Shown here: one piece after another, positions 1 to 16,583 of the stretch
How the letters are laid out: every line of letters begins with the position of its first letter
How positions within the stretch are numbered: the first letter of the stretch is position 1
DNA from: a virus
Virus record (IMG/VR): IMGVR_UViG_3300025121_000144
Coordinates: 1 to 22,086 of that record
DNA: 22,086 nt
Reading direction: 5' to 3' (one strand)
Position numbers and translations under genes: made by a program
Notes under the pieces: generated by a model
Seen by the model: the letters and a program-made list of their open reading frames with translations, nothing else
Told to the model about the DNA's origin: nothing
The model's database searches: none

Positions 1-426
1 CCCAGCGAAGGGAGCTGTCAGTAGTGCGCCTGCAATCTCTTCCTTTCCAGTGGGCGGTCTTACATCGCCAGTATCGGCTTTCTGACCAAACGCCATATTA
101 ATGGCTTCTGCGCTCTTTCTGGCCGTCGGCATACCATAACCAAGCGTACCCGCCTGAATAGCCCCCTGGCCGATTCCTTTACCAGTAGGCGATTGCATGG
201 CATTCACTTGTTTGACAGGATTAAGAGCAAATCCAAGTGATCGTTTAACCTCACTTCCGATTGTTGCCTTTGGCTGTTCCTGTATTGGCTCCAACTCCTT
301 AAATTCAACCTTTTCCTTGTAGACAGGGTATTTATCAACAACCTTTTGTGCTAAAGTCAGATCATCGACACTTTCGTATTGCGGATATTTTTGTTTGATA
401 GACTTAGAAAATTCCTTGTAGTCCAT
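1..426 (-). CDS. Large virion/ejection-type protein, N-terminal 142 residues (runs off window)
   Basis: The reading frame is open from an ATG at 426 to the window edge, with no stop in 142 codons, so only the N-terminus is visible. The protein begins MDYKEFSKSIKQKYPQY. The first 35 residues have a short repeated pattern around 'KYPxY' (KYPQY at about 14-18, KYPVY at about 32-36). From memory, this pattern is common at the N-terminus of large podophage virion proteins, often internal or ejection proteins or ones carrying a lytic domain. The rest is low complexity and rich in Gly and Ala. The start codon follows the TAA of the upstream gene directly with no gap, so translation is probably coupled. 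No enzymatic domain can be judged because the C-terminus is missing. The phage-structural role is inferred from position and the N-terminal pattern. Confidence 0.65.
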   Translation of the reverse strand, partial: MDYKEFSKSIKQKYPQYESVDDLTLAQKVVDKYPVYKEKVEFKELEPIQEQPKATIGSEVKRSLGFALNPVKQVNAMQSPTGKGIGQGAIQAGTLGYGMPTARKSAEAINMAFGQKADTGDVRPPTGKEEIAGALLTAPFAG

Positions 427-1371
427 TTATAGCCCCAGCCCGAGAGGGTCATTGTCGTCTACCTTGCCACCTGACAATTCTCCGTATGTATCATTGAATG
501 ACTTTCGTGCTGATTTCCGACGCTGTTCAATGTCTTGTAATGCCATTTCAAAAGCCGTTTTCATCTTAGGCAATACGCTAATATCACCATTAGCTACTGA
601 ATTTGCAAAGAACTTCATTTCAGCGTCAGAGATCGCGCCTTTTGTGAATTGCAAGTTCATCAACTGCATTTTAGAAAGAGTGGATTTAACCTTTTGAATG
701 TCAGATAGTACAGGCGATTTTGACCCTGCCGCTTCCATAACGGCTATTTTCCCGCTACCAATAATTCCTGTCGGTATGTTATCAACAACAGCTAACGCTT
801 CTTTTATATTACGTTCGAGTATATCGGCTTCCGTCATATTGTCATTAAATTCTTTCTGTGCTTTTGGTAATCCGCGCATGAGTTGTTTCTTATTGTATCC
901 GTCCATCTGTTCGTCAAATGGCTTTTCTGCCTTTGGGGGATTAATGAAATCGTTCTTTTCCGTTCCGGTCGGGATGCCTGTATTTTCATACTTCCCTGAT
1001 TTTGGATTCCATTGCCATCCAGTGCCGCCGGATTTCTCTTGTTTAATCGTCTTTAATCTCACCGTTGGCGGTAGATCGTCGTTCTCCGCAATATAGCCAT
1101 GCACCACGTTCAAAGACTGTGCGTCTAATGGCTCACCCATTGTGTCGGTCAACTCATAGTCTTTCAGTTTCTCTTTCCATAGGTTGAACTTATTTTCGGA
1201 AATAGCCTTCTTGCGTTCGGAAAGTTGTTTTTTCTCTTCTGCCCTGTTCGCCATTCCATAATTCACGCCGCCCACCAATCCCTGCGACAATAACTGTGCC
1301 GGTCTTAGCCTTTGTTCTTCGTCTGATACTCTTTTTCGTTCAAGTAGCGCAATAGCTTCCTGTGCGTTCAT
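427..1371 (-). CDS. Unknown late protein, probable internal virion/ejection protein
   Basis: The product has 314 residues and I do not recognise a family. Residues 1-75 are charged and predicted helical (ERKRVSDEEQRLRP, then NRAEEKKQLSERKKA). The middle is rich in Gly, Pro and Lys. Residues about 165-295 are helical again, with a central small and hydrophobic segment (VDNIPTGIIGSGKIAVMEAAG). There is no signal peptide, in contrast to the five tail genes transcribed before it. An SD-like GGAGATAAT lies just before the ATG at 1371. It sits one base after the stop of the 439-residue gene and directly before the next start. The place after hub and fibre genes matches where podophages encode DNA-ejection proteins. 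That role is inference; the reading frame itself is secure. Confidence 0.75.
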   Translation of the reverse strand: MNAQEAIALLERKRVSDEEQRLRPAQLLSQGLVGGVNYGMANRAEEKKQLSERKKAISENKFNLWKEKLKDYELTDTMGEPLDAQSLNVVHGYIAENDDLPPTVRLKTIKQEKSGGTGWQWNPKSGKYENTGIPTGTEKNDFINPPKAEKPFDEQMDGYNKKQLMRGLPKAQKEFNDNMTEADILERNIKEALAVVDNIPTGIIGSGKIAVMEAAGSKSPVLSDIQKVKSTLSKMQLMNLQFTKGAISDAEMKFFANSVANGDISVLPKMKTAFEMALQDIEQRRKSARKSFNDTYGELSGGKVDDNDPLGLGL

Positions 1372-1372
1372 A

Positions 1373-2692
1373 TTATCTCCTTAAAAGACTTGGAAAAGAA
1401 CTGTTAATATCTGATATTCGAGAAGGTTGATTATAATATGGTCTACTTGCACTTGCGAGATTTTGATATCCAATAGACGATGTAGGTTGACTTCCTTTAA
1501 GAAGTCCACTAACACCAGAAGCAACCATGCCACCGACGGGGCCACCAATGGCATAGCCTGCGCCCATTATCGCTGTATCAAGTAACGGCTGCCACCATTG
1601 CGCCTCTCTTGGTTGTGTCGATTTGTAAAGGTTCACCATTTCACGGTCTGAGCGTTCCTGTGAGTCAATCTGTCGCTGCTGTGCAACGGATTTATAGCCA
1701 GCGTCAAGTCTGTTTGCTTCTGTTTGGAATCCAGCGTTTTGCCTGGCAAGAAACGATTGAAATTCATTCTGTAAAGGTATCAAGCGTCTTTGGTCGTTTG
1801 CTGATGCTATTCCCAATAAGCGGTCAATTCCTGTTCCTGTCTGTGTAAGTTTTTGACCCAATTCATTGGACGCGGCACTATATCCCATCTGCTCGCGTCC
1901 AAGCTGTGTCTCTCTGATCAAGTCCGCTACGGCTTGCTGGTGTGCTGAACTTCCAATATCGCCAACAGCCGAAAAAGACTCCGTAAGCCGTGTGGCGGCT
2001 TTCCTATCTTCTTCTGAGTACAAATTGTTGTAATACTGCGTCCATGTCCTTACTTTTTCAGGGTCAACCGTTTCGGGGTTGTCAATAATGCTCTGTATTC
2101 TTGTCTTAATTTCAGTAGTTTCTGGTGACTCTGCGTAAGCCGCTTCCTCTTCTGCCTCTGTGGTTGTTTTTAATGTCGCTATTTTGTCTTTATAAGGTGT
2201 AAGGTCATAACCATACGCATTCTGTGTTTCAATCGTGCCGTAGATACTATTAGCGGTATCATAATCACCATCGGCAATGGCTTTATCAAGTTTCGGCTTA
2301 ACAGTATCTTCCCAGTATTGTGCAGCCTGCTGTGGAAGTGTTTTTGTTCTTTCTTCTATTTCGCTTGTTAAAGAGGGCAGGTCTTTCCATTCTTCACTAT
2401 CAGGATATTTATTTGAAATAATATCCTGTGTAACGCCGGTTAGCTTGCCATACTTCCGTGCTTCTGCGTTATAGTTATCGACAGTTTTTGAATATACTTG
2501 CGTACCGTATTTCGTTAAATACGTACCTTCAAGATCGCCACTCCAAGGAACCTTAAATTCATTAAATGATTCCGTTGGCGTTAATCCGGCCTTAGTAAAT
2601 TCGTCAACATAACGTAAATAATATTTATTTTTCCAAGGCGCGGCACCACCCATACTGCGTGCTTTGTCAACTTCACTTTGGGTTATAGCCAT
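1373..2692 (-). CDS. Long helical late protein, candidate DNA-ejection protein
   Basis: The product has 439 residues, mostly polar and alpha-helical, with likely coiled coils from about 120 to 350 (EIEERTKTLPQQ; AQQRQIDSQERSDREM). A Gly/Ala-rich amphipathic or membrane-active segment lies near 370-395 (AIMGAGYAIGGPVGG). This mix of a long Gln/Glu-rich helical body and one glycine-rich hydrophobic patch is typical of podophage ejection proteins that form a channel in the host envelope, but sequence alone does not prove it. There is no signal peptide. A strong AAAGGAGAATGAT site precedes the ATG at 2692. The upstream neighbour is a fibre-like gene and the downstream neighbour another probable ejection protein. 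A gene boundary this clean and a length this great make it a real CDS even though the family is not recognised. Confidence 0.78.
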   Translation of the reverse strand: MAITQSEVDKARSMGGAAPWKNKYYLRYVDEFTKAGLTPTESFNEFKVPWSGDLEGTYLTKYGTQVYSKTVDNYNAEARKYGKLTGVTQDIISNKYPDSEEWKDLPSLTSEIEERTKTLPQQAAQYWEDTVKPKLDKAIADGDYDTANSIYGTIETQNAYGYDLTPYKDKIATLKTTTEAEEEAAYAESPETTEIKTRIQSIIDNPETVDPEKVRTWTQYYNNLYSEEDRKAATRLTESFSAVGDIGSSAHQQAVADLIRETQLGREQMGYSAASNELGQKLTQTGTGIDRLLGIASANDQRRLIPLQNEFQSFLARQNAGFQTEANRLDAGYKSVAQQRQIDSQERSDREMVNLYKSTQPREAQWWQPLLDTAIMGAGYAIGGPVGGMVASGVSGLLKGSQPTSSIGYQNLASASRPYYNQPSRISDINSSFPSLLRR

Positions 2693-2777: not shown

Positions 2778-3488
2778 TCAATACGGAACAAGCAGCAAAA
2801 AGGATAGTTGATATATAGTTCCAGCGTCTGCATTATCTCCATTGTGAAATGTAAACGTTAGAGTTGATGACGTGAAAGTATCTAAATATAAATAATGTAT
2901 ATCGTTTGCCCCATTTCCACAGCCATCACAAAACCCCTGTCCATACACAACGTCCGACGTGTCTATATTAAACGAAAACCCCCCAATCTTTACCTGATAG
3001 TCAGTTCCGGCTGGTGCTGTAGCACGAACATGGATTGAAACTAAGTAATGTGATGAAGAAATTGGTATCTCAAATGCACTCCCAGAAATATCAACCCAAG
3101 TCGTGTCGGAAGTGTTTGTTAAAGTTATTGGAGAGGTTCCACTCCTTCTCGGTATGCTTTTGTTCCATATATAGGGAGTGTTTAAATTCGTCGTCGTTAT
3201 ATTCGTAATCGTCGAGTGCGTCACCGTGAGATTGGTGATGGTGGTGGCTCCGCTGAACGTGCAAGCCCCTGAATGCGACTCTGTACCATTAAAATACACG
3301 TCATTTTCAAAGATTTTATCGCCGTAAACTGCTTGATTACCATGCAGGGTTACATTATTTTGCCTTGAATCTATCGCCCTGCGATTTTGCAGACCGTTTA
3401 AAATAGGGTCAACAATTTCAGGGGCTTGAGCCCATGAAAGAGAAACCGACAGAATGATGATTAAACTACTGAACAGGTTGCGTATCAT
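2778..3488 (-). CDS. Secreted fibre-like tail protein (C-terminal of the exported tail cluster)
   Basis: The product has 236 residues from the chosen ATG at 3488. A longer in-frame start at 3524 would put 12 residues ahead of the signal peptide and lie deeper inside the hub gene. The N-terminus MIRNLFSSLIIILSVSLSW has a basic n-region, a hydrophobic core and an AQA site, with predicted cleavage after Ala22. Residues about 50-95 are Thr/Asn/Ile-rich with short repeats (TITNLTVTHSTITNITTTNL), the look of a triple beta-helix fibre shaft. The C-terminal 110 residues are beta-rich and contain a CDGC pair. The start overlaps the end of the hub gene by 23 bp, implying coupled translation. A receptor-binding or fibre role is inferred from composition and position. 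Confidence 0.72.
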   Translation of the reverse strand: MIRNLFSSLIIILSVSLSWAQAPEIVDPILNGLQNRRAIDSRQNNVTLHGNQAVYGDKIFENDVYFNGTESHSGACTFSGATTITNLTVTHSTITNITTTNLNTPYIWNKSIPRRSGTSPITLTNTSDTTWVDISGSAFEIPISSSHYLVSIHVRATAPAGTDYQVKIGGFSFNIDTSDVVYGQGFCDGCGNGANDIHYLYLDTFTSSTLTFTFHNGDNADAGTIYQLSFLLLVPY

Positions 3489-5775
3489 AAATAATGTTCC
3501 AGCCCCTAAGACTGAATTTTCCATTCAATAGGCGTGCTTTTAGCTGTATAAAGTAGCTTTTGAGTTGATTTGCTATCGGCGTGCGTGCGGCAACAAGAAT
3601 TGAGCCGGATAGGTCAACGGTATTAGTGGTAAATGCGGTGGTATATCCGTCAATCTGGTAATCAACGCCCATTGAACCACCGCTATTATCGGCGTGCGTA
3701 TATATCTTGTTCCACACCTTTTGAGCCATCGGATTACCAGCGTCAAGCCACGGAGTTTTGTAGTACGCATCGTATGCCACGCCGTCATCGGTATAGATAC
3801 CATCTACCATCCGTTGCTTAATCGTTCCGTCAGAATTGGAATTGCCCGTATAGAATTTATTGCGGTATAGGCAGGATGATTGAGCATAGATGTTATTGTA
3901 TTTCGTCCACCGACCATAACGGTCATAGACGTAAACTACATTGTTATACTGTGTTTCGCTATCCGTCGAAACGAATAGCCAGTATTCGTCATTAAATACC
4001 TTGCCACACGGAGTAAAGTTATTTACCCCGTAACTCTGCACCCGTATTTCATCTAATTTCGGTGTTGCTGTTACGCTTGTACGAGTAAATGATGCATAGA
4101 ACAGCGCATATGGACCGACAGCGGAAGGAATAGCCGCACCATCGGTAACGACAAAAGGAGCATTCGTGGTGAGATTGTAGGCACTGGTTGAGGTTACGGC
4201 GTAGTAGTCAATATCGCTTCCAGAAGGGATTGTATCGTCTACCTGAAATGTGCCCCAGCTGCCCCATGAAGAACCGGCATTGATGGATTTGGTAGTGTAT
4301 GAGCTGGTTAATTCATTACTCGAAAGATATACTTTGAATTGTATATCACCGTTCTCACCATACCCAGGTATTGTATAAGCGCCTCTTGCATATGAATCGG
4401 TTGAGGTTTTCGCTCGACGTACGGTGCCAATACCTCCATACAAATATATTCTATACTCACGATCTTTTATTAATTCATACGATGTAGAAAAGTCAAAATC
4501 TATATATGAGAAATCAGTTGATACACTGCTGTCATTTACAGTCGAACTTGTGGCAAGATTTGCACCCGACGAACTACCCAGAACAACATATAAACCAGCT
4601 GAAATTGTTCCGACCTTTTGCAAATATAGACTTATTGTGGTTAGATAATTTGTTGTTCCTGGTTTGAACGTCTGATAATACGTCTCATCCGATATAAGAG
4701 ACCATCCATTATTTGTCGTTTGGCTTTGATCTATATATTCATCATTACTTACCATTGCCACACTGCCACTATACGTCGCGGTATCAATGTTCGTGCCACT
4801 ACCAGCGCCCCAGTCCGCTGCTGTGGTCAGCGTGTTTAGGCTTGAATTGGTGTCAAGCTGTCTAAGTGCCTTTATTTCGTTGTCTATTGGCTCGGATACC
4901 AGCTTAAAACCGCCACCAGTCCATACAACAATCCCTAAGTGACTTAACCATATTGGCATACCCTGATAAACATCCATCGTGTCACCGTACAAGCATCCGA
5001 TATTAGGATCTAAACAAGTCAATTGCCACGTTGCCACGTTCTTTCCCACCAGCTCCCATGTAGAGTGTTCTTTCGTCCAAATAAACGTATCTTTTACTTT
5101 CAGGCCGCCGGTAATGTTTTCCCCGTCGTCTTTGGCTATAAATTTCCAGCCATAACCACTACTTCCGAAGTCATCGGGGTCATTGGTAACGCTCCAATAG
5201 AACCGGCTCCGATCATTCGTCATACCGGCTTTCAATAAGACGTTGTTATACCAGTAGATATAACGACCTTTCGGTACGCTGGTAGAATTAGCCACCGTCA
5301 ATGCCGTATAAGTCGTTCCATCCCATTTACCTGGATCGTCATATCCATTATCACGGTACAGATACCCACCGGCTGTCGTGTAGCTGTCTTTATAGGAACT
5401 GCTTAATCCACTCTTAATTGACGTTGCTATGCCATCAGAAAGCGCATAGTAACACGACCATGACGAATTAAATATCAGATATTTATCACCGTCGGATTGT
5501 ATGTATTCGTACATTGAGCGAATGGGTTGTTTTTCGGTAAGTGCTGCAGAAAGGAAATTCAGACTTCCTTCACGCGGTGTAACCCCAATGTCTTTTGAAA
5601 ATGTCACGTTTAGGCAGTCAGGGGTACAGTTTTGGGGTATTCTTTCGGCTGAATAGTTGGTAACTAACCCACCACTGAAATCAAATAATGGCAGTACTGC
5701 TTCCTCTGCGTGCGACTTAATCGCCACGCACATTGAAAGCAGTCCGGCAATGATTAGTCTATTAATCATTCTCAT
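3466..5775 (-). CDS. Tail hub / DNA-stabilisation-like protein with N-terminal Sec signal
   Basis: The product has 769 residues. After the signal peptide, the segment FDFSGGLVTNYSAERIP at 31-47 followed by 'CLNV' is the pattern seen at the start of podophage tail-hub and tail-tube proteins of the P22 gp10 / T7 gp12 type (an 'SGG-(N/T)-x-x-x-IP-x-x-x-x-D-x-xNV' signature). Aromatic-rich WxxxD repeats from about 75 to 300 suggest a beta-propeller. A Ser/Thr-rich beta-sandwich-like insert occupies about 300-540. The propeller pattern resumes to the end (YDRYGRWTKYN). Residues 1-23 (RMINRLIIAGLLSMCVAIK, then SHA) form a Sec signal with cleavage after Ala23. Cys50 and Cys54 fall in the signature where homologues rarely have Cys. 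Start and adaptor stop overlap as ATGA. The SD is weak (GGGAAA, distant), so coupling is likely. Confidence 0.82.
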   Translation of the reverse strand: MRMINRLIIAGLLSMCVAIKSHAEEAVLPLFDFSGGLVTNYSAERIPQNCTPDCLNVTFSKDIGVTPREGSLNFLSAALTEKQPIRSMYEYIQSDGDKYLIFNSSWSCYYALSDGIATSIKSGLSSSYKDSYTTAGGYLYRDNGYDDPGKWDGTTYTALTVANSTSVPKGRYIYWYNNVLLKAGMTNDRSRFYWSVTNDPDDFGSSGYGWKFIAKDDGENITGGLKVKDTFIWTKEHSTWELVGKNVATWQLTCLDPNIGCLYGDTMDVYQGMPIWLSHLGIVVWTGGGFKLVSEPIDNEIKALRQLDTNSSLNTLTTAADWGAGSGTNIDTATYSGSVAMVSNDEYIDQSQTTNNGWSLISDETYYQTFKPGTTNYLTTISLYLQKVGTISAGLYVVLGSSSGANLATSSTVNDSSVSTDFSYIDFDFSTSYELIKDREYRIYLYGGIGTVRRAKTSTDSYARGAYTIPGYGENGDIQFKVYLSSNELTSSYTTKSINAGSSWGSWGTFQVDDTIPSGSDIDYYAVTSTSAYNLTTNAPFVVTDGAAIPSAVGPYALFYASFTRTSVTATPKLDEIRVQSYGVNNFTPCGKVFNDEYWLFVSTDSETQYNNVVYVYDRYGRWTKYNNIYAQSSCLYRNKFYTGNSNSDGTIKQRMVDGIYTDDGVAYDAYYKTPWLDAGNPMAQKVWNKIYTHADNSGGSMGVDYQIDGYTTAFTTNTVDLSGSILVAARTPIANQLKSYFIQLKARLLNGKFSLRGWNIIYDTQPVQ

Positions 5776-6485
5776 TTTTTATTGCTATTTCCCATGAATG
5801 AAGGCACATAGTCAGGCGTAACCCTTATGACACGTTCCATCACGTTTATGCGGTCAACGTAGAGCATATAGTATTTGTCTCCGTCGGTCGGTTTTCCATA
5901 GGCATAGCTGATAAGAGCTGACGCGCCCAATACAATGGCATAGTGGAACGGATCTAATCTGTCCTGTCCGTCAAATGGCTCGTCAGTGTCGGAGGTCAAT
6001 TCGGTGGGGTTTTTGATATACCATGCAGTAAATGACGTGTCTGTGGTTGTCGAAGGAATAGTGTCAAAACCAATAACACTGACAGTCGTGTGACGCACAT
6101 AGTAATACGAGGGCGTGGATGTCGCCTTGCTTACATCCCACGAACCATCTTCATCATCAAGTTTTGACACACTCTTTTGCGAGATCAATTCATCGTCTAT
6201 GGTCAGGCGGGTAATCGCCACCATGTCTGACTCAAACTGATATTCTTCCTGACCGACAGCAATGGTATAGGTATGATAATCCTCAATACACCATGTATTC
6301 ATGGCTATTTCACGCTGGACGATGTTGATATACTCGTCAATCAGCGTATCGGAGAATACGGGACTACCGGTAGCAGGGGTATTGTCCCTGACAAGACTCC
6401 TAACCATCGTCTCAATCTCACCCAAATTAAGAGCATAAGCCGACGTATTCATAAACATACATAGTGCAAAGATTGCTCTTTTCAT
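5772..6485 (-). CDS. Head-tail adaptor (connector) protein with N-terminal Sec signal
   Basis: The product has 237 residues. The mature part matches the podophage head-tail adaptor pattern: 'LGEIETMVRSLVRD', then 'FSDTLIDEYINIVQREIAMNT' at about 43-64, then 'GQEEYQFESDMVAITRLTIDDE' and 'TPSYYYVRH'. This is the family that docks under the portal and connects it to the tail. Remarkably it starts with a classical signal peptide (MKRAIFALCMFMNTSAYA, cleavage after Ala18). The start at 6485 is supported by an AGAGGAAGG Shine-Dalgarno sequence at normal spacing. A shorter start at Met10 would still keep the AYA site but lose the basic n-region. Adaptors normally act in the cytoplasm on filled heads, so export is unexpected. 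The family call is confident; the export call is strong but not proven. Confidence 0.85.
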   Translation of the reverse strand: MKRAIFALCMFMNTSAYALNLGEIETMVRSLVRDNTPATGSPVFSDTLIDEYINIVQREIAMNTWCIEDYHTYTIAVGQEEYQFESDMVAITRLTIDDELISQKSVSKLDDEDGSWDVSKATSTPSYYYVRHTTVSVIGFDTIPSTTTDTSFTAWYIKNPTELTSDTDEPFDGQDRLDPFHYAIVLGASALISYAYGKPTDGDKYYMLYVDRINVMERVIRVTPDYVPSFMGNSNKK

Positions 6486-6495
6486 GTCCTTCCTC

Positions 6496-6876
6496 TTATT
6501 TCTGAGTCACATAGAACATATCAAGCCTGTTGCTTGCACTACCGTCGGCAGTAATTGCATAAATATTCTTCGTCGTGCGGCCATTCAGATTAATGCTTTC
6601 GTCAGTCTTCAATAGCATTACATTGCTGGCATTTGTCGCGTTAGATGAAAACGCTATTGAATACGTTGATAAATATATCGAATAATCACCATGATTAATC
6701 AACAACCAATCTCCGATATAGTCTGCTTGTGTAGTCATTAGTTGCGTACACGCCGTAGAGCTGATAGTTACATTACACGGCCTTGGATCGTTTCCCAAAT
6801 ATGGGGTTGTTGGCTCAACAGCATATAGAATTGAACAAAACGACAACAGATAAAGCGTTAATATAATGCGTTTCAT
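6496..6876 (-). CDS. Small secreted tail-cluster protein, beta-rich
   Basis: The product has 126 residues. The N-terminus MKRIILTLYLLSFCSILYA is a signal peptide with predicted cleavage after Ala19. The mature 107 residues contain two cysteines (NDPRPC and STAC) close enough to form a disulfide. The C-terminal half reads like a small beta barrel or decoration-type fold (STYSIAFSSNATNASNVMLL, then LNGRTTKNIYAIT). From memory, that half resembles small phage accessory proteins placed beside adaptors, but no family is claimed. An AAGAGGAAGG-type SD precedes the ATG. The stop lies 10 bp before the adaptor start, so the two are co-transcribed. It may be a minor tail or attachment protein; that is inference from neighbours. 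Confidence 0.7.
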   Translation of the reverse strand: MKRIILTLYLLSFCSILYAVEPTTPYLGNDPRPCNVTISSTACTQLMTTQADYIGDWLLINHGDYSIYLSTYSIAFSSNATNASNVMLLKTDESINLNGRTTKNIYAITADGSASNRLDMFYVTQK

Positions 6877-6891
6877 GTTTTGACCTTCCTC

Positions 6892-7074
6892 TTAATCCGT
6901 TTCGCTATCGAAACAATCTGTGCAGATAATTTCGTCACCAAGAATCTTTGCCGTATTCTTCCCGTACTTCTCAAAATAGAAACCACAACGCCGACATGGC
7001 AACTGCCCGCCTTTCTTCATAAAAGATTTATTTGAAATTGTGCGTCCGTGTTTTTCACTGAATCTCTTTGACAT
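6892..7074 (-). CDS. Small zinc-ribbon protein
   Basis: The product has 60 residues with two CxxC knuckles, Cys27-x-x-Cys30 (LPCRRCG) and Cys51-x-x-Cys54 (ICTDC), spaced as in a one-zinc ribbon. The first 23 residues are basic (MSKRFSEKHGRTISNKSFMK), giving a nucleic-acid-binding look. There is no signal peptide although it lies between two genes for secreted proteins, so it would act in the cytoplasm. It could be a late regulator or a structural zinc protein; no specific family is recognised. The ATG at 7074 has TTGGGGAAA upstream. A 14-bp hairpin sits just before it in the intergenic gap, which may set its expression apart from the fibre gene. Confidence 0.6.
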   Translation of the reverse strand: MSKRFSEKHGRTISNKSFMKKGGQLPCRRCGFYFEKYGKNTAKILGDEIICTDCFDSETD

Positions 7075-7087
7075 TTCCCCAACTTAT

Positions 7088-7122
7088 GCCCCCTCACCTT
7101 GAATAGAACAAGGCAAGGGGGC
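7088..7122 (-). terminator. Strong intergenic hairpin after the fibre gene
   Basis: The 14-base arms 7088-7101 and 7109-7122 pair completely with two G-U wobbles (in minus-strand RNA) and leave a 7-base loop. It begins 10 bp past the fibre stop codon. In minus-strand RNA no U tract follows, so it is more likely an attenuator, processing site or 3'-end stabiliser. On the plus strand a TTTATTT follows, which would act as a terminator for stray antisense transcription. Confidence 0.6.
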
Positions 7123-7131
7123 TTTATTTAC

Positions 7132-8217
7132 TTACTGAATGTATCGGCTAACGATATGCCAGTTGGCATTATCTGAAACAATAGTGATGAAATCATACTG
7201 CGCATCAATCGCCGTATAACCGTCTGCTCCGTCAATTGTTTCGCTTGCATTCGTAGTTACAGTAACAACACCAGCAGCACCACTTTTCTTGATCGTGAAC
7301 GTAAGACCACCATTACCAACAGCGGTTGGAAGTGTGATCTCCTGTTCGGTTGCCTTCGACGCAATCACAATGGTTGCCGACGAAACGGTAAGCGTGCCGG
7401 AATCTGCCATTACCACATAACTCTGCTTGTAGCCAGCAGAGAATGACATATTGCCGGTAACGGCAAGCGTGCTGCTCGCCGTTAATGCACCTGTTGCGGA
7501 CAACGCGCCAGTAACAGCTGTCGCTCCGACAAGCGATATATTTGCACCCGTTGCAGTGACAGTAATATCATCGGCCGCCGTAATAGCAATATCGCCAACG
7601 GTTTCATCAATCGTCACAGCAGTTGCCGCCTGCGTGATACTAAACGTAGGATCGGAACCGGTCGTGCCCTTGATCATCGAGAACACTCCGCAATCAGCCG
7701 CCGCCGTACCCATTGTCATTGCACCGAGTACTCCAGTCGCGCCCGTGAAGGTTTGGGCCCCGGTAACGGCCAGCGTACCGCCGACGGTCGTATTACCAGC
7801 TTCTTCAACCTTAAACACGGTAACCGCGGTTGCGCTTGCCTTACAGGTGATGAAATCACCATCTGCGTCATCGGATTGATTCTTCTGCCACAACTCCAAC
7901 AGATAATGCTGTTCAGATACCGCTGAACTGGTATTAACAACCTGAACAACACCATAACCAGCAGGCACATTCGATGAAGTCGTGATATTGAACTCCTCGT
8001 CACGAGCGTCGAGATCAATATCAATCTCTTCATCGAATGCAGTAGCACCCGTAACAGTCAGATTGTTCTTGACGTTTGTATTACCAGAAGAATCCACCGT
8101 AAAACAATCATCACCGGCGGTATTATCTCCGGCGGCGATCATATCACCTATGGCTGCAAATGCCGTGAAATTACAAAACGACATGATTGCAACAAGGGTA
8201 ATTATTCTCTTAAACAT
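7132..8217 (-). CDS. Secreted fibre/stalk protein with TG-rich repeats
   Basis: The product has 361 residues from the ATG at 8217, chosen because a near-perfect GGAGGTGA lies just upstream. The frame stays open further upstream, but that would overlap the capsid gene and bury the signal peptide. MFKRIITLVAIMSFCNFTAFA is a signal peptide with cleavage after Ala21. The body has repeats of the type 'LTVTGATAF', 'LAVTGAQTFTGATG' and 'GALSATGALTASSTLAVTG', typical of trimeric beta-helical phage fibre shafts. The C-terminal 100 residues form a compact domain (EITLPTAVGNGGLTFTIKKS, then DFITIVSDNANWHIVSR) that recurs at the end of many phage fibres. It sits straight after the major capsid gene. It is probably a virion fibre or spike; exact location on the virion is unknown. 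Confidence 0.78.
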   Translation of the reverse strand: MFKRIITLVAIMSFCNFTAFAAIGDMIAAGDNTAGDDCFTVDSSGNTNVKNNLTVTGATAFDEEIDIDLDARDEEFNITTSSNVPAGYGVVQVVNTSSAVSEQHYLLELWQKNQSDDADGDFITCKASATAVTVFKVEEAGNTTVGGTLAVTGAQTFTGATGVLGAMTMGTAAADCGVFSMIKGTTGSDPTFSITQAATAVTIDETVGDIAITAADDITVTATGANISLVGATAVTGALSATGALTASSTLAVTGNMSFSAGYKQSYVVMADSGTLTVSSATIVIASKATEQEITLPTAVGNGGLTFTIKKSGAAGVVTVTTNASETIDGADGYTAIDAQYDFITIVSDNANWHIVSRYIQ

Positions 8218-8248: not shown

Positions 8249-9151
8249 TCAGCTACCATAGCTACCATAGATACCACGCGCGTCAACACAGTCATACGAA
8301 CAACGGAAGCGTGACATAAACAGTGCGTCATCGGTGGTATCAGGAGCGGCAACAGCACGTCCGTTTATCTTCTCGCGCCAATAGAACAGAAGCTGGCGTT
8401 CTTTGGGGTCGGTCATCAAGTACCACGAGCCGGACAGCTGCAAGTAGTCCCAAATAACAGATTTCAGTCCGCGTTCACGAATGGCGTTCACGTCGCGGGT
8501 GGTCGTACCCGCTTTTTCCATATTTTTGAGAAGCTGGATTGAAGTGAACTCATTCATTCCTGGGATCGCAAGCATGGTAGGGAACAACGGCTGCGGATTG
8601 CCCCAATCGTCAACGGTCTGGCGCATACCGGTCAAAGCGGCTTCAAGCGACGTTACAGACAGCGCGGCATTCGTCGTAGGACGGTTTGCCCATGTGGTCG
8701 CACCATCTCCTTTGCACGGGTGATCAGTGGCAATAATTGCCTTACCATCAGCGCAGGTGTTGGTCTGAAACAGGTCAACGAAACCAGCCGTCAGCAGTTC
8801 GACGGTCTGGCGTGCAGCGACACCAAGAAGCTGGGGAATCTTCGTCAATTCTCCAGACAGGTCATCGTCTGACGCTTCTTTTTCAATACGGGCATATGCC
8901 GCATACGTTTTGTGCGTCAGCGTCTTAGCGTCCTTCTGAACCATCGTCAGTTCGGTTGCGTTCGCGCCTTTATTTTTTTCGGGAATAACGCCGAATCCGG
9001 TAATGCCACCGCGTTTTTCATACGACTGTTTCGACGTAAGAACGTCGAATATCTGATCGAATTGCGGCTCAACCTTCATCACTCCGTCATTGTAAATTTT
9101 GGAGTACTGAGGATTAAGCAGATTTGCAAATGCTTCACCTTTCATAGTCAT
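8249..9151 (-). CDS. Major capsid protein (HK97-fold, Mu gpT-like)
   Basis: The product has 300 residues. The segment 'DGKAIIATDHPCKGDG' near 135-150 is the 'DGxALFSTDHP' hallmark of Mu gpT-type and related HK97-fold major capsid proteins. Upstream, 'AARQTVELLTAGFVDLF' matches the spine helix. Downstream, 'LMTDPKERQLLFYW' near 249-262 fits the A domain. There is no long N-terminal delta domain, so scaffolding is supplied by the separate scaffold gene transcribed ahead of it. The start at 9151 follows AAGGAAGGTGA. Gene order scaffold, small protein, decoration, capsid is standard for tailed phages. It has no signal peptide, in contrast to the tail genes that follow. Confidence 0.9.
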   Translation of the reverse strand: MTMKGEAFANLLNPQYSKIYNDGVMKVEPQFDQIFDVLTSKQSYEKRGGITGFGVIPEKNKGANATELTMVQKDAKTLTHKTYAAYARIEKEASDDDLSGELTKIPQLLGVAARQTVELLTAGFVDLFQTNTCADGKAIIATDHPCKGDGATTWANRPTTNAALSVTSLEAALTGMRQTVDDWGNPQPLFPTMLAIPGMNEFTSIQLLKNMEKAGTTTRDVNAIRERGLKSVIWDYLQLSGSWYLMTDPKERQLLFYWREKINGRAVAAPDTTDDALFMSRFRCSYDCVDARGIYGSYGS

Positions 9152-9178: not shown

Positions 9179-9661
9179 TTATGCCTGCGCCGCGCCGTTA
9201 GACTGCAACAGCGATGACGGGATTGTCACGAATACACGCGGATATACGTCCGTTGCAGAATCACGCGGGGAACGCCCGATGATATGGAACAGATCATGCC
9301 CGGTATCTGAAATATCCAAATAACAGACGTTTGAAACCACATCGAGCGCATAGGGAATGCCCACACTCGCATCCGCACATAACGCACTTGCGGCAGTCGC
9401 GTGATAGACGGTAACTTCCAAAATATCTCCCGGCATGATAACGTCAACTGGCAACATTGTGCTTGTCGTTCCCGTAGCATCAGCTTTTACAATGCCAATG
9501 CACAAAACGGCGTCATCTGCACATTCAGCAATGCGCCCATCAGTCGTAAGATAAACAAGCTGATCGGCTTTAAACGTCTGCGAAGCCGCTTCGGGGTAAT
9601 AGACGATATTGCCCTGAGAAAGCCCATTCCTTTTAATCTTTTCTTTCGTCCGTGTAGCCAT
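9179..9661 (-). CDS. Capsid decoration/stabilising-type protein
   Basis: The product has 160 residues and is beta-rich. The N-terminal 'GLSQGNIVYYPEAASQTFKADQLVYLTTDGRIAEC' followed by 'GIVKADATGTT' resembles the small capsid decoration or DUF2190-like proteins encoded next to Mu gpT-type capsids. These have a 'fkagdlV ... dGk...a....i.Gia...a' pattern. It would bind the outside of the capsid shell. AAAGAGG lies seven bases before the ATG at 9661. It has no signal peptide. Position between scaffold and major capsid genes supports the assignment; the exact family is a pattern match from memory. Confidence 0.68.
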   Translation of the reverse strand: MATRTKEKIKRNGLSQGNIVYYPEAASQTFKADQLVYLTTDGRIAECADDAVLCIGIVKADATGTTSTMLPVDVIMPGDILEVTVYHATAASALCADASVGIPYALDVVSNVCYLDISDTGHDLFHIIGRSPRDSATDVYPRVFVTIPSSLLQSNGAAQA

Positions 9662-9679
9662 TGTTAACCTCTTTGTTCA

Positions 9680-10165
9680 TTATTTGTCTTCCAATGTTTC
9701 GGAAGTATCGGCTGTTACGCCGCGCAACTTATTGTTTCGTTCTGCAGATTCAGCGATATAACGCTGACGGTTCTGGATAGGTGCTATTTCAGCCGCGAAT
9801 TTATCTTTGAAATCCTCTTCGGAGATGTGCATAAGAATCAAATCTCCGCGAGTAATAAAAGACGTTTCGGAAGATCCTTGTGAGAGCGGGCCTCTCGACT
9901 TGCGCTCATCTTTGGTAAGCGTCGGGTATTCATACCCTTCGCCCTCTTTTTCTTCCATCGAATCCGAATCCCTACGAACCCACACAGGGTGCATACCGGG
10001 GTATTTCTTGTGGTATTCAACTGGGACGTCGAGTTTTCCCTTCCTTGACCAATCCCGCTTGACCTTTACAGGTGCTACCGCTTCGGTAGGCTGCGTGGTC
10101 TTGCCGCCCTGCTCTTTCGCTTCCATTTCCAGTTTTGCTCTGTCTGCTTTTTTGACGTATGCCAT
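9680..10165 (-). CDS. Unknown head-module protein, charged
   Basis: The product has 161 residues, strongly charged, with Lys-rich N-terminus (MAYVKKADRAKLEMEAKEQ) and acidic C-terminus (TSETLEDK). The central 'HKKYPGMHPVWVRRDSD' looks like a short folded motif, and 'RGDLILMHISEEDFKDK' a helix. I do not recognise a domain. AGGAGA precedes the ATG at 10165 with good spacing. It lies between scaffold and decoration genes in one run of closely packed genes, so a role in head assembly or as a minor head protein is likely but inferred. Confidence 0.68.
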   Translation of the reverse strand: MAYVKKADRAKLEMEAKEQGGKTTQPTEAVAPVKVKRDWSRKGKLDVPVEYHKKYPGMHPVWVRRDSDSMEEKEGEGYEYPTLTKDERKSRGPLSQGSSETSFITRGDLILMHISEEDFKDKFAAEIAPIQNRQRYIAESAERNNKLRGVTADTSETLEDK

Positions 10166-10183
10166 GTTAGTAATCTCCTGTTT

Positions 10184-10987
10184 TTATTCTGCTGTGTAGC
10201 TTCCCCAACGGCTCTGGGGCTTCACTTTTCCGCTCACAAACTCCTCAACGGCTTGCACGCTACCACCAGAACGCTCAATGTATGCCTTTTGTTCTGCTGT
10301 AAGGTGGGTTGTCTTCGGGCTTGGAGTGGCAGGAGTACTACCACCACCAGCAATATTTACTTCGGGCGGGGCGGGTGGTCTTGCGGTTACACTCTGCCTG
10401 CCGCGCTCTTCTGCCATTTTGATAATGTCTGGCATATGTGCATTAATGACCTCTGATTTGATCTTTGCAAGCTCATCTTTGTTCGTCCGTTTCTTCACGG
10501 GTAGAAGGTTTAGTTTTGCCTCAATTTCAGGCATGAACTCCTCAAAGATTGGATCTTCGGCCTTTAATCTGTGCTTGGTGCTTTCGTAACGGTCTTCCGC
10601 AAGCGCATTCTCGATTTCATCCAATTTGGCTTTGAACTCGACAGTGTCCTTGTTTTTCAGTTCAAGCATCCGATTCATTAACTCAATCTGCTGATACGGA
10701 AGCCCGAACTGTTCTTCAAGCTGACGTTTGACGTGTTCCGGCGGCTCCTGATACAGCGGTGGCTGCGGAGCCATCGGCTGCATACCGTTAAGCTGCTGTT
10801 TCATCAGGTCGAGTTCTTTACGAAGCAAAGCCGCTTCCTGCTGCTTAATATTCATCTCGCGTACTGCGGCCTTATACTTCGCTTCCTCAACTACTGACGG
10901 TGCCGGTGTTACCGGCGGTGTTTCTTTTGGCGGTTCGTTCGCAGGCGGCGTTACCGGTTCTGCGGGTGGAACAATCTGATCTGGCAT
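10184..10987 (-). CDS. Capsid scaffolding protein
   Basis: The product has 267 residues. A Pro/Glu-rich disordered N-terminus (about 1-35) is followed by a coiled coil (about 36-70, KAAVREMNIKQQEAALLRKE), a Pro/Gln linker and a second long helical region (about 85-200, QIELMNRMLELKNKDTVEF). The C-terminal 60 residues are Pro/Thr/Gly-rich with a short helix near the end. Acidic, helical, low-complexity proteins of this size directly before the capsid genes are phage scaffolds that fill the procapsid and leave before packaging. GAGGAG lies before the ATG at 10987. It is the first gene after an intrinsic terminator, so its mRNA start or readthrough is separately controlled. Confidence 0.78.
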   Translation of the reverse strand: MPDQIVPPAEPVTPPANEPPKETPPVTPAPSVVEEAKYKAAVREMNIKQQEAALLRKELDLMKQQLNGMQPMAPQPPLYQEPPEHVKRQLEEQFGLPYQQIELMNRMLELKNKDTVEFKAKLDEIENALAEDRYESTKHRLKAEDPIFEEFMPEIEAKLNLLPVKKRTNKDELAKIKSEVINAHMPDIIKMAEERGRQSVTARPPAPPEVNIAGGGSTPATPSPKTTHLTAEQKAYIERSGGSVQAVEEFVSGKVKPQSRWGSYTAE

Positions 10988-11983: not shown

Positions 11984-14050
11984 TCATTCCATCGGTGCGC
12001 CGGGATGTGCTACTGGTGCTGATTCTTGTGGCGGTATTTCAGGTGCAGGGTTCCCGTTCCGCTCTGCCATCTTACGGCTGATAAACTGCTGTCTAAACTG
12101 CGCTATAAGCTGTTCCCGCTGTTCAGGTGGTACGCCCTTAACATCCATAGCGTGTATAAACTTCTCTTCCTCATGTTTTGCGTACTCACCGATCATCTGC
12201 TGTTTGGCATCACTCATAACCTTTTCGGTCTGCATTATCATGGCTTCACGCTGTTGTAATTCCTGTGCTTTCTGCTGAATCATCTGCAACATCTGCATTT
12301 CCTTAGGTGAGCGCATAACCTTCGACTTATCGCGTGGTGCCAGTTTATCAACCAAATTCTCCTTGAGGAAGTATGTGTTGGTTTCGCCGGTCTGATCTTG
12401 CCCCAATGCTTGGTATAACGCCACAGCACCTTGCTTATCGGCATTGACCATAACATCAACAGCACCCTGCAATACGACTATATCCCAATCATCAATGAAT
12501 TCAAGGTCTTGCCGCGTAAGCGTTGCCTGTTTGTATTCCTGCGTCTCTTTGTCCTGATAGCTGTATGTAATCCCTTCGGCTGGCATGAACTCGTAGGCAC
12601 ACTGTAAAGTCTGTTTAATTCCTTCTTTTAGGGCTTCCTGTGTGTTCTGCATAAGCGGGTCAAGGTTTAGGCCGTACTCTTGCAGAAGCATCGCCGTGCC
12701 GCGCATAGTCGCTTTCTTATTGATCGAGCTTTCACGGCCTAATGAGTAATCAGAGACAAGTGATTTCCTTTCAAGGAACCCCTGCAATATACCTTCAATC
12801 CCTGCTATGTCCTGCAGACGGCTTTCAAATTTCCATTGCTTGATAATATCATTTGACTTAACCGGTGCGAATTTCCCCGGCTCTAATTTGTGCTTGTCAG
12901 GATCAAACCCTGCACCAGGTATATATGTACCGGTGATCGTGTTAGATAGCGTGTTGTTATCCAGTGCCTGATCTATCACTATGTCAATTGCGTCATTGAG
13001 CGCACCGATATACATTGGTATGCCCTGCCCGTCTATCTTTCCGGCAATCCTCCGGCATTTCCCTGACACAACCGGCTTACGCTTATCAAAGAATGAGTTT
13101 TCCTCGTCATAGACCAGATTGCCGGTGTCCTTTGAAATGATAAACGTCATTTCTTTATAGTCCGGTGCGTCCGGCGTTCCTACGTTATAGGCAATCCACC
13201 ATTGATAGAATTTCTTTTTGTGCGTAAGAGTATTGGAATAGCCAATATAGTCATTCTTTGTATCGTCATCATCAGATTCATTTTCGGCGGTTGGTAGATC
13301 ATTGGGCTTGATTGATCTTAGTATATCTTTGACGTTATACCACGGGTTGTCTTTACGTTTGCTTAATTCAAAGATTTCAGCCGGTGACTTCTCAAACTCA
13401 ATGCAGACTGCCCCGCACTTCTGGATTGTATTAGCTGAGTTATCAAACTTGATTAACCGTCTGGGGATATTCACCCACCGTGCAGCGATGAAGTCATTGA
13501 TCTCTTTGTCCTCGGCTTGCATCTCACCGTCTTGACCAACGAGGGATTGGAACATAGCTTTTGCGCCATCAACTATCTTTCGTACTGAAAACCTCTTGAC
13601 CTTACGTTTAGACACATCAGGAACGATCTGAATGAAGAATGACCCCTCTACGGTGTTGTACTGGAATGCTTCGAGCAGTACGTCATTGACACCCGACTTA
13701 TGCCGCCAGAAGTTGTTAAGCCAGTTCTGTGCGTTCTTTGCTGCTGCGTTTGACGCCGCGCTGACCTGCGAACTGATATTGACCAGCTGCACGGAGTTTA
13801 ACGCCGATGAATACCGCGCTTCTATGCCCGAACATGAGTAAGAAACAATACCAGTCTGTATGTCTGCGGCACCATTCCAAGGGAACGATTTATCTTTTTT
13901 CGCAGAATGTTGACCGGTATACCTCGACCACCACTCGTCAAGGTTGTCTATAACGCTTTTATCGTTCTGCTCGTAAATTGAATATAATGAGCATAGATAA
14001 GCCGCTATTTCCTTCTTCTTTTCTTCGGTCAACTTAAATTTCTTAGCCAT
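11984..14050 (-). CDS. Portal protein (podophage type)
   Basis: The product has 688 residues, the size of large P22-like portals. 'DKSFPWNGAADIQTGIVSY' near 53-71 is the 'FPWpGAAD' motif at the start of this portal family. Later come the wing and stem regions, and residues 590-640 are Gln-rich and helical (EMQMLQMIQQKAQELQQREA), matching the C-terminal barrel helices of podophage portals. The end is Pro-rich. Twelve copies would form the DNA channel at the capsid vertex, bind the terminase during packaging and later the adaptor. It overlaps the co-chaperonin gene by eight bases, and no long gap lies between packaging and portal genes. No signal peptide. Confidence 0.88.
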   Translation of the reverse strand: MAKKFKLTEEKKKEIAAYLCSLYSIYEQNDKSVIDNLDEWWSRYTGQHSAKKDKSFPWNGAADIQTGIVSYSCSGIEARYSSALNSVQLVNISSQVSAASNAAAKNAQNWLNNFWRHKSGVNDVLLEAFQYNTVEGSFFIQIVPDVSKRKVKRFSVRKIVDGAKAMFQSLVGQDGEMQAEDKEINDFIAARWVNIPRRLIKFDNSANTIQKCGAVCIEFEKSPAEIFELSKRKDNPWYNVKDILRSIKPNDLPTAENESDDDDTKNDYIGYSNTLTHKKKFYQWWIAYNVGTPDAPDYKEMTFIISKDTGNLVYDEENSFFDKRKPVVSGKCRRIAGKIDGQGIPMYIGALNDAIDIVIDQALDNNTLSNTITGTYIPGAGFDPDKHKLEPGKFAPVKSNDIIKQWKFESRLQDIAGIEGILQGFLERKSLVSDYSLGRESSINKKATMRGTAMLLQEYGLNLDPLMQNTQEALKEGIKQTLQCAYEFMPAEGITYSYQDKETQEYKQATLTRQDLEFIDDWDIVVLQGAVDVMVNADKQGAVALYQALGQDQTGETNTYFLKENLVDKLAPRDKSKVMRSPKEMQMLQMIQQKAQELQQREAMIMQTEKVMSDAKQQMIGEYAKHEEEKFIHAMDVKGVPPEQREQLIAQFRQQFISRKMAERNGNPAPEIPPQESAPVAHPGAPME

Positions 14051-14624
14051 TGATTTCGCCTAAAATGTCCTCTGTGTTGACGATGAAATACGTCTTACCA
14101 TCGAGCAGGATTTGAGAATATCCATAGGGTGACAGCAGAACCTTTTCGCCCTTGTTGTACACGTCACTGTCAACCACTACCCCAACATCCGAATACTTCT
14201 CTTGCTGGGCAACTGATAAGATAATCCCGCCATCAGTCTTCTTGTCCTCATTCTCAATCGGTGTAACTATCGTGCGCTTGCCAATAACTATCAGACTGTC
14301 ACCGTCAACCTTACACAGCAGGTTTTCAGGTGCGATAATCTTATAATCCTGTTTGTTCATCTCTACATCTTGACCGGTGTAGGAATCATAATAGACCACA
14401 TCACCCAGACGCACCTCAACCTTCGCAAGCCCGACAAAGACCCCGCCTGACTGACGAATCCAGCCACGCCGCGAATACTTTTTATACGCCTCATGCTTGA
14501 TAATACCTGATCCAAACGTGTCCGAATCGCTTTCGCACTCAATCAGCACATGATTGCCTTTAACGGTAAACCTCTGGCCATTCTCAAGGTTAATTGCTGA
14601 CGACTTCAATTCGTTGCTTGACAT
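14043..14624 (-). CDS. Tandem GroES-like co-chaperonin
   Basis: The product has 193 residues made of two GroES-like domains. Domain 2 (about 112-193) aligns by eye with GroES: 'VIGKRTIVTPIENEDKKT', the mobile-loop core GGIIL at 132-136 (GGIVL in E. coli GroES), and 'KVLLSPYGYSQILLDGKTYF' followed by 'IVNTEDIL' in place of 'EEVLIMSESDILA'. Domain 1 (about 20-105) has the same plan, with 'GNHVLIECESDSDTFGSGII', then 'LGDVVYYDSYTGQDVEMNKQ' and 'DYKIIAPENLL'. Double-GroES proteins are known from chloroplast Cpn20; phage co-chaperonins such as T4 gp31 and RB49 CocO have one domain. It would cap host GroEL for folding capsid or tail proteins. It lies between terminase nuclease and portal, and its stop and the portal start overlap. 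Confidence 0.8.
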   Translation of the reverse strand: MSSNELKSSAINLENGQRFTVKGNHVLIECESDSDTFGSGIIKHEAYKKYSRRGWIRQSGGVFVGLAKVEVRLGDVVYYDSYTGQDVEMNKQDYKIIAPENLLCKVDGDSLIVIGKRTIVTPIENEDKKTDGGIILSVAQQEKYSDVGVVVDSDVYNKGEKVLLSPYGYSQILLDGKTYFIVNTEDILGEING

Positions 14625-15304
14625 TAATATCCTCCGCTTCCTCGTTCTGTTCTTTGTAGACTGCGCTCATATGCTCTTTGTGCCGCCTGTAATGCCCCGC
14701 TATTACGTCCTAAATCTGGATAAAGCAAATACATCTCATACGCTATGGCCGATGCCATTACCCGGTCATCATGTGCGTTCTTTTCGGCCTCCGCTTTAAC
14801 TGAACTGCTATGCTGAACCCTGACGAAACTGAACATCTCGTTGATCGTTGCTTTGTCGTATATGTGAATCAACCTATTATCAACCGCTTCTTTCAGGTGT
14901 GACAGCATCTGCGGTCTTGTGGCTGTGTTTGTGTCCCAGCCCAACTTATCGGCTTTCTCTATTGTGCCGGTTGATGGGTCTTGAATCGGCATCCTGAATA
15001 TGTCAAATTTTCCTTGCTTGTTAAGGCGTGCCAGTCTGTCCATCTCGCAAGCTCCACCCTTTGCCCGCTCATATGCTACCAACGGCTCAATACCTGTACA
15101 GTCATAAACGTATTCAAGTATCGGGAAAAGCTCATCAGTGAAACTCGTCGCTATCTCTGGCATTGCCAACACCAGCGGAAAATCAAATCTCTTCGATGAA
15201 AAGAACTGACCTACTGACCAATCTCCGCATCCGTCCGAAGTGTCAACACCCACATATATCTGCTCGCCTTTCTTCAAATCGCGGTATTCATTTAACGGCG
15301 GCAT
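14624..15304 (-). CDS. terL: Large terminase, nuclease subunit (split TerL C-terminal half)
   Basis: The product has 226 residues from ATG 15304, chosen because GGAG lies seven bases upstream. The frame stays open upstream to 15337 but lacks an SD there. It is the RNase H-like nuclease half of TerL: 'YVGVDTSDGCGDWSV' near 17-31 carries the first catalytic Asp, 'PLVAYERAKGG' the Glu, and 'NAHDDRVMASAIA' the last Asp pair. 'KLGWDTNTATRPQML' is a family motif between them. It would cut concatemeric DNA during packaging. In most phages this is fused to the ATPase domain; here the ATPase gene ends 17 bp inside this one, in another frame. The order and overlap imply a working two-part terminase. 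Confidence 0.88.
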   Translation of the reverse strand: MPPLNEYRDLKKGEQIYVGVDTSDGCGDWSVGQFFSSKRFDFPLVLAMPEIATSFTDELFPILEYVYDCTGIEPLVAYERAKGGACEMDRLARLNKQGKFDIFRMPIQDPSTGTIEKADKLGWDTNTATRPQMLSHLKEAVDNRLIHIYDKATINEMFSFVRVQHSSSVKAEAEKNAHDDRVMASAIAYEMYLLYPDLGRNSGALQAAQRAYERSLQRTERGSGGY

Positions 15305-16154
15305 TGTTAATCTCCAAAAGATACTGATGCAATGCATCCTTGCTGAAATACGTTTCGCCTGATGTTAAAAAGGCATCTTGTGGCGTATCAGGGAACTCTT
15401 GCAGTATCAGCCGTTTGTCTGTGAACCCTGCGCATATCGCCTTGTACTCATCCTGTGAGTAGAACTCTCGCCATGAGAAGAACCTGGGTTTGTAGTCTAC
15501 TTCACCGCTAACCGCCATATCCCAAGTCTTTTTGAAATAGTTGAACCCGTTAGCGGTTGTTTCCTGTATCACCATCCCAGAATTAATCGCTACCATGCTT
15601 TTTGTTCCTTCGATGATCTCCGGTGCCGATATTATTCCGGTATTCGGGAAATGCGCGGCTTCGGTGAACAATACCCCTTGTACCGTGCCACCACGCTCGC
15701 CAGTCTTCGTTGAAGCTGTTCCCACATAGAAACTTGCGCCATTGTGCCTTAAAACAAACTCTGCGCCTTCTGTGATTGAAGAGAACACTAACCGGTCAAG
15801 TTCCTTTGTCCACTTCTTCGGGTTTCTTTCAAAGAACGATAAAATATATGCTTTCGCTCGTCGGAAATGCTGCCGTGTCGCGTCTTCTTTATAGCTGATC
15901 TCTAAGTACCGAACGGGATTAACATTGTGCAGTATGTCGGCGCAGAATATACCTAACCAGAACGATGTAAACCCTTCTTTGCGCGCCTTTAAGTCTATTT
16001 CCCGCAGCCCTCTAAAATTCAGCTTCTCGCCATATTCTTTGCACAGTATATCGTAATAGTTTTTCTGAACCTTCCTGAACAAAAACGGAACATATGCACC
16101 TGTATCTTTATCGTCGATTAAAAAATGATCTTCGATAAACTTTTTGAATTGCAT
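15288..16154 (-). CDS. terL: Large terminase, ATPase subunit (split TerL N-terminal half)
   Basis: The product has 288 residues and contains only the packaging ATPase domain. 'LKARKEGFTSF' at 55-65 is the variant Walker A loop of TerL proteins (ARQxGxS type). 'VQGVLFTEAAHF' near 148-159 is Walker B, with Thr instead of the usual Asp before the catalytic Glu. 'QETTANG' near 187-193 is the coupling motif. 'DTPQDAFLTSGETYF' follows, where the linker to the nuclease normally starts, and the chain stops after 'LLEINNAAVK'. ATP hydrolysis would drive DNA into the procapsid with TerS and the nuclease partner. The start at 16154 is four bases past the TerS stop. Confidence 0.88.
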   Translation of the reverse strand: MQFKKFIEDHFLIDDKDTGAYVPFLFRKVQKNYYDILCKEYGEKLNFRGLREIDLKARKEGFTSFWLGIFCADILHNVNPVRYLEISYKEDATRQHFRRAKAYILSFFERNPKKWTKELDRLVFSSITEGAEFVLRHNGASFYVGTASTKTGERGGTVQGVLFTEAAHFPNTGIISAPEIIEGTKSMVAINSGMVIQETTANGFNYFKKTWDMAVSGEVDYKPRFFSWREFYSQDEYKAICAGFTDKRLILQEFPDTPQDAFLTSGETYFSKDALHQYLLEINNAAVK

Positions 16155-16157
16155 GGG

Positions 16158-16583
16158 CTATTCATAACGCTTACGCATGGCTTCTATCATCTCGCTAAGG
16201 CCTGTAACTTCTGTTTCGGTCTTTTCCTTCCAGTCGTAATGGTTTGACAATATGTACTTTGTCATCGTCGCATCGGTCTTTCTGGTCAGAGCATTCTTCT
16301 GTAATTTATTGCAACAAGCAGTCTTGACCAATGACAACATTTCCGAAAACTCTTTTGATTTTTCGCAAAACTCCGATAGTCTTTGCAGCGCAAAACCGTT
16401 GTCAAAACAAAACTCGCCGAGTATATAATTATCAGGTTGTTTGGCCCATATATGCAATTTGCCACACAAATCTTTCAGAAATTCGACTGTATACCTTTCA
16501 GGCGCGCCCGTTGCATTCTTCCCATTAGGTTTTAAGTCGTATGTGTGTTTCTTCTCTGGTTTGTGATTCTTGGTCTTAGCCAT
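16158..16583 (-). CDS. terS: Terminase small subunit
   Basis: The product has 141 residues directly upstream of the TerL genes. The N-terminal 25 residues are basic. A helix-rich part follows (about 30-110). The C-terminus has 'TKYILSNHYDWKEKTETEVTG', the 'LKNxxGWKDKxExxxxG' pattern typical of one class of phage small terminases (from memory). It recognises the packaging start site and stimulates the ATPase. GAAAGGGA precedes the ATG at 16583. The 103-bp gap ahead of it holds a GC-rich hairpin that may be part of the recognition region; that link is a guess. Confidence 0.78.
   Translation of the reverse strand: MAKTKNHKPEKKHTYDLKPNGKNATGAPERYTVEFLKDLCGKLHIWAKQPDNYILGEFCFDNGFALQRLSEFCEKSKEFSEMLSLVKTACCNKLQKNALTRKTDATMTKYILSNHYDWKEKTETEVTGLSEMIEAMRKRYE

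Follow-up and report, generated by a model that had tools for sequence, protein, structure and literature searches.

The window, that is, the whole stretch of DNA analysed here (IMG/VR record IMGVR_UViG_3300025121_000144, 22,086 nt, about 22 kb), contains the late region of a podophage on its minus strand. The genes are arranged in the order terminase, GroES-like, portal, scaffold- and decoration-like, Mu gpT-like capsid, tail block and ejection-like genes. The same phage was found on two further metagenome contigs, and the shared proteins that were tested are 100% identical; the N-termini described below are thus no assembly error. One of these contigs, G001, runs 13 kb beyond window position 1. 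The features are as follows, with the predicted signal peptides given up to the cleavage site.

14624..16583, minus strand: terminase small and large subunit, two overlapping reading frames, no signal
14043..14624, minus strand: phage GroES-like co-chaperonin, no signal (phrog_3188, E 1.6e-16)
11984..14050, minus strand: portal protein, no signal (phrog_1216, E 3e-13)
9179..10987, minus strand: decoration-like, small head and scaffold-like genes, no signal
8249..9151, minus strand: major capsid protein (Mu gpT-like), no signal (Pfam PF10124, E 8.9e-16)
7132..8217, minus strand: signal-bearing tail/fibre-like protein, 361 aa, first gene after the capsid gene; MFKRIITLVAIMSFCNFTAFA, cut before A; score 11.1; Shine–Dalgarno (SD) sequence GGAGGT
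6496..6876, minus strand: signal-bearing small protein, 126 aa; MKRIILTLYLLSFCSILYA, cut before V; score 8.8
5772..6485, minus strand: head-tail adaptor, 237 aa (SU10_adaptor, model and PDB matches); MKRAIFALCMFMNTSAYA, cut before L; signal residues 1-18, predicted mature from L19
6432..6485, minus strand: signal peptide segment of the adaptor, 18 codons (alignment A6 and VIA alignments)
3466..5775, minus strand: likely tail hub/nozzle, 769 aa (Foldseek, low-confidence model; signal-bearing homologues in five further phages); MRMINRLIIAGLLSMCVAIKSHA, cut before E
2778..3488, minus strand: signal-bearing protein, 236 aa; MIRNLFSSLIIILSVSLSWA, cut before QAP; score 10.6
1373..2692, minus strand: ejection-like protein, 439 aa, no signal, no Cys, assigned from position and size
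427..1371, minus strand: ejection-like protein, 314 aa, no signal, no Cys, assigned from position and size
1..426, minus strand: start of a 709-aa ejection-like protein, no signal, no Cys, complete in G001 (L021:292-2421)

Two further loci of the window may be mentioned. The terminase large subunit is encoded in two overlapping frames (14624-16154; 288 + 226 aa), unlike that of the related phage G004, which is a single 516-aa frame; at least the N-terminal half of the split version is identical in both sister contigs. Adjoining the integrase gene, a putative lipoprotein (MRKVLWVVFFALLLSGC) that includes the collagen-like stretch GDKGDDGDKGD is encoded at 20296-20805, possibly an exclusion or lysogenic-conversion gene.

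The N-termini were assessed with a home-made scorer that considers n-region charge, h-region hydrophobicity and the residues at -3 and -1, with a threshold of at least 7. It was calibrated on E. coli K-12. Of 17 known signal proteins 15 passed, and none of 50 cytoplasmic proteins did; four of 13 N-terminal membrane proteins passed as well, so that signal peptides and anchors are only partly separable by this score. The first-pass annotation had described a basic n-region, a hydrophobic core and an AxA-like end in the products of the genes starting at 8217, 6876, 6485, 5775 and 3488. This description was borne out for all five, which score 8.8-11.1 and show the positive n-region, hydrophobic h-region and small -1/-3 residues of Sec/signal peptidase I substrates. 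When residues 2-30 were shuffled the observed score was attained in 0-3% of the trials, and random N-termini of mature composition reached a score of 7 in 0.25-1.4%. By eye, neither a lipobox nor the twin-arginine consensus is present in the signal-bearing proteins; one adaptor of the related phage G021 starts with MRRFK, yet lacks the full Tat motif.

Some details had to be revised. For the 3488 gene the signal itself stood, but not the proposed cut after AQA: this would place a proline at +1, which is disfavoured by signal peptidase, and cleavage between SWA and QAP is likelier. The strong SD claimed for two genes is present at 8217, whereas that of 6485 is only moderate (AGGA in GAGGAAGGA). 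The 5775 gene has no SD and overlaps the stop codon of the adaptor gene (ATGA-type coupling). For the 3488 gene there is an alternative upstream start at 3524, where the score is 4.6; its use would weaken the signal. Finally, the count of five signal-bearing tail genes was too low, as G001 carries four more tail/fibre genes with signals beyond the window (259, 512, 156 and 349 aa), the first of them encoding a Gly-rich tail-fibre-type protein. The product of the first gene after the capsid gene (7132..8217) had no match in Pfam.

The 6485 product had been annotated as a head-tail adaptor, and this assignment was confirmed by three approaches. First, it matches SU10_adaptor (PF24175) from residue 20 on with E 1.2e-17 and 65.4 bits at a cut-off of 27. 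Second, a profile of 12 adaptor sequences retrieved the GP4 adaptor from the PDB at E 2.5e-10. Third, the AlphaFold model, in which most of the mature domain has high confidence and residues 1-20 have low confidence, matched the adaptors of GP4, SU10, A4, Pa223, VP1, KHP30 and N4 (Foldseek, VIA); for GP4 the Foldseek E-value is 2.6e-9, and VIA gave Z 16.1 with an rmsd of 4.2 over 197 residues. Judged by profiles and predicted structure, the protein is a true podophage adaptor, alike in fold and family to those of GP4 (8jov), SU10 (7z47), KHP30 (7wmp) and Pa223 (9nwi) and to T7 gp11. It differs from these in that the signal-bearing adaptors have gained a signal peptide of 18-24 residues ahead of the ordinary first residue. 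In alignment A6 the initiator methionine of ordinary adaptors falls at the predicted cut site of the signal-bearing ones, and in the VIA alignments model residue 18-19 lies on chain residue 1-2 of the GP4, KHP30, Moo19, VP1 and N4 adaptors. The adaptor is therefore complete in itself, and the signal has been added in front of it as a separate segment.

The 5775 product is likely a nozzle or hub of the P22 gp10/T7 gp12 type, as had been proposed. The best Foldseek entries of its strand-rich model (pLDDT 49) are nozzles (Pa223, Pan3, VP1, SU10, P22 gp10, Sf6 gp8, T7 gp12); the match to the Pa223 nozzle has E 8e-12 with low TM-scores. The gene lies after the adaptor gene, the position it shares with the nozzle genes of P22, Sf6, T7, Pa223 and VP1. 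It differs from those nozzles by its signal peptide and by the lack of a sequence-profile match in the PDB: nothing was retrieved at E<=1, a result that still leaves room for a relative.

Relatives of the phage were gathered by scans for terminase and adaptor relatives. Six further lineages were obtained that carry a signal on the adaptor (G004, G021, G023, G024/G025, G026/G027/G028 and L118). Conservation of the signal in homologues, which had been put forward as a check, was observed throughout: all eight adaptors from the seven lineages have it, at identities of mostly about 25-45%, as do all six full-length hubs (window and five further phages). In a tree of the mature adaptor domains alone, eight signal-bearing adaptors are separated from seven signal-less ones by a branch with 98/99 support. 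Homologues without the segment, which the first-pass annotation would have counted against its reading, were encountered only outside the signal-bearing clade, with their methionine at the predicted cut site.

A tblastn search of the INPHARED phages with three signal-bearing adaptors yielded no adaptor relative, and for the hub there were only weak matches, so the group has no cultured member there; no relative was found in the GTDB genome contigs that were scanned. Two contigs with a terminase of 58% identity (L023 and L038) have post-capsid genes without signals and stop before any adaptor was found. The signal-tail module may perhaps have moved between head types: by BLAST the window capsid is nearer to ordinary phages than to the signal phages, although in the capsid tree it falls on a long branch without a resolved position. 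Three peculiarities of the relatives were also noted. G021 has two adjacent paralogous signal-bearing adaptors (L088:17856-19318; 38% identical), which perhaps form two stacked adaptor rings. On L118 an ORF that by eye resembles an HNH endonuclease lies on the opposite strand between the signal-bearing adaptor and hub genes (L118:6343-6804). G027 has a GroEL-like gene (by eye; L092:11520-13136), and the window phage has its GroES-like gene at 14043-14624.

We compared the distribution of the signals over the gene classes. The tail block was counted as beginning with the first tail gene and ending with the hub gene, except that in the window it takes in one gene beyond the hub. The second set comprised 50 genes for terminase, chaperonin, portal, scaffold, decoration, capsid, post-capsid and ejection proteins. 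All 27 tail-block genes of the seven lineages are signal-bearing, as against none of the 50 head, packaging and ejection genes, all of which score below 7 and most far below. The nominal Fisher p of 2e-21 has to be read with the relatedness of the lineages in mind and with the fact that the lists were curated and starts picked with the hypothesis known. This agrees with the earlier claim that capsid, portal, scaffold, decoration and ejection proteins lack a signal. The ejection genes encode proteins of up to 2,274 aa, and downstream of them signals are again present, here on proteins of fibre type (in G023 a tail fibre, phrog_4492, E 8e-41; in G027 a tail spike, phrog_4636, E 1e-15); one gene in the fibre region of G004 beyond the ejection genes scores 6.1, just below the threshold. 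Since the signals resume past the ejection genes, the pattern tracks virion topology and not one DNA stretch. The amidase endolysin has no signal, which is in line with holin-dependent release.

A signal-less protein of 158-185 aa follows the capsid in G004, G023, G021, G027 and L118 (L018:4974-5450, L085:16624-17181, L088:16613-17128, L093:221-739, L118:4423-4932) and marks the border between the head genes and the signal-bearing block; it is missing in the window phage. Another peculiarity concerns cysteine. The 14 ejection-like proteins of five genomes (window 1-2692, L017:7359-16120, L086:1342-9652, L089:3703-5857, L093:5360-10823) contain none in 9,659 residues, compared with 99 in about 11,566 residues of the other signal-less proteins. 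Two ejection-like proteins of the Manatee Spring phage ctf1B273 likewise have none. Disulfide formation was considered as a reason for export and found no support: even Cys counts are not favoured, and the higher Cys content of the predicted mature exported proteins (7.4 vs 4.7 per 1000 residues) arises because the ejection proteins are Cys-free.

The nearest ordinary phages for comparison are HMO-2011-type and other podophages with a Mu gpT-like capsid (CRP-902, QDWS535, GB2A, Pag-Yong1). Their capsids are 24-29% identical to that of the window, several have a GroES gene and the order of the head genes is similar. They differ in that their structural genes have no signals: in eight such relatives 1 of 125 genes of the compared regions was signal-like, and this one encodes a holin-like protein. 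The signal-less tail proteins of an ordinary, cytoplasmically assembled podophage are therefore not what is seen here, with every one of the 27 tail-block genes signal-bearing. In filamentous phages of the M13 type the virion proteins traverse membrane machinery, and their encounter with the genome takes place at the inner membrane; those phages, however, have no pre-formed DNA-filled head and are extruded without lysis, whereas here only the tail is signal-bearing. In the open-access literature, outside which most subscription papers lie, we found no report of Sec signals on a tail adaptor or hub. The scattered mentions of signal peptides in the phage literature examined concern holins, endolysins, spanins and other genes. 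The signals of the tail block are real, conserved and unexpected.

Podophages are built from a portal, one to three dodecameric adaptors, a hexameric nozzle, fibres and core proteins within the head (PMC11784390). As the phages described here have the same classical parts list, we propose that their tail parts are exported by Sec, trimmed and assembled in the periplasm, to be joined to the head later. The adaptor, the hub/nozzle, the fibres and several small tail proteins would be synthesised as precursors with a cleavable Sec signal peptide, which signal peptidase I of the host would remove on export; folding and assembly of the tail machine would follow in the periplasm. Capsid, portal, scaffold, terminase and ejection proteins would remain in the cytoplasm for assembly and DNA packaging, the ejection proteins ending up inside the head. 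Filled heads might meet the tails at the inner membrane or else during lysis, once the membrane has been opened by holin and endolysin; until the adaptor arrives the heads would have to hold their packaged DNA in some other way. On the simplest reading, the parts that lie outside the head below the portal are exported and those in or inside the head are not.

The scheme is physically plausible, since in sipho- and myophages finished heads attach to finished tails spontaneously (PMC3185693). Neck proteins are usually required to keep the DNA from leaking out of packaged heads (PMC3185693), and a periplasmic adaptor thus leaves the scheme with a sealing problem. The suggestion of the first-pass annotation that tail parts cross the inner membrane gains support from the conservation of the signals and their tail-only distribution. 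Assembly of the virus is probably divided between two compartments of the cell, and we consider the scheme as a whole, with joining at the membrane or upon lysis, to be likely. We also lean, with somewhat less assurance, towards an obligate two-compartment morphogenesis, in which the tails including the portal adaptor are periplasmic and are joined across or at a breached inner membrane, perhaps within lysis.

We considered several other explanations for the hydrophobic N-termini. They could remain uncut and serve as membrane anchors, so that a tethered tail would be assembled at the inner membrane, on its periplasmic side, and filled heads would dock there via the portal. Such docking would account for contact, ahead of lysis, between a portal in the cytoplasm and an adaptor that has been exported, and our scorer passes some N-terminal anchors of E. 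coli, too. The segments, however, are short (18 residues in the adaptor, about nine of them hydrophobic) with small residues at -1/-3, and release of an anchored adaptor ring would be difficult. Their median 19-residue hydrophobicity of 1.76 equals that of E. coli signal peptides (1.76) and not that of membrane proteins (2.00); as the ranges overlap, individual proteins may nevertheless be anchored. For the tail in general we regard anchoring as unlikely.

Export could also serve another purpose such as receptor block or superinfection control, while the virions would draw on leaderless copies that stay in the cytoplasm and are translated from internal starts. Other phages do encode exported lipoproteins and exclusion proteins, and the window phage has its own lipoprotein gene (20296-20805). 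We consider this very unlikely, as the region around the cut site, in the window adaptor as in its homologues, showed no internal start preceded by a good SD, and exclusion would require neither adaptor, hub and all fibres nor the retention of the ejection proteins. It is also highly improbable that the segments are uncleaved membrane-active peptides of the virion that aid entry of the tail into the next host. Podophage proteins do insert into envelopes on infection (PMC11784390), but these are ejected core proteins, which here lack the segment, while every part from adaptor to fibres has signal-peptidase-like ends on diverged sequence and the adaptor segment sits ahead of the ordinary start. 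Mistaken start codons or N-termini that are hydrophobic by chance, for which the lacking SD of the 5775 gene and the upstream start of the 3488 gene could be adduced, are most improbable in view of eight of eight adaptors, six hubs, the complete tail-block set, the single signal-like gene in 125 of ordinary relatives and several strong SDs.

The proposed export of the tail leads to a direct prediction, namely that the adaptor in the virion begins at about residue 19. Tailed phages are taught as being assembled in the cytoplasm and released by lysis, and we know of no characterised tailed phage with a two-compartment assembly. If the proposal is true, a tail-exporting lineage exists in which head and tail can be separated by a membrane before they are joined, and how a packaged head is sealed without its adaptor would become a testable question.
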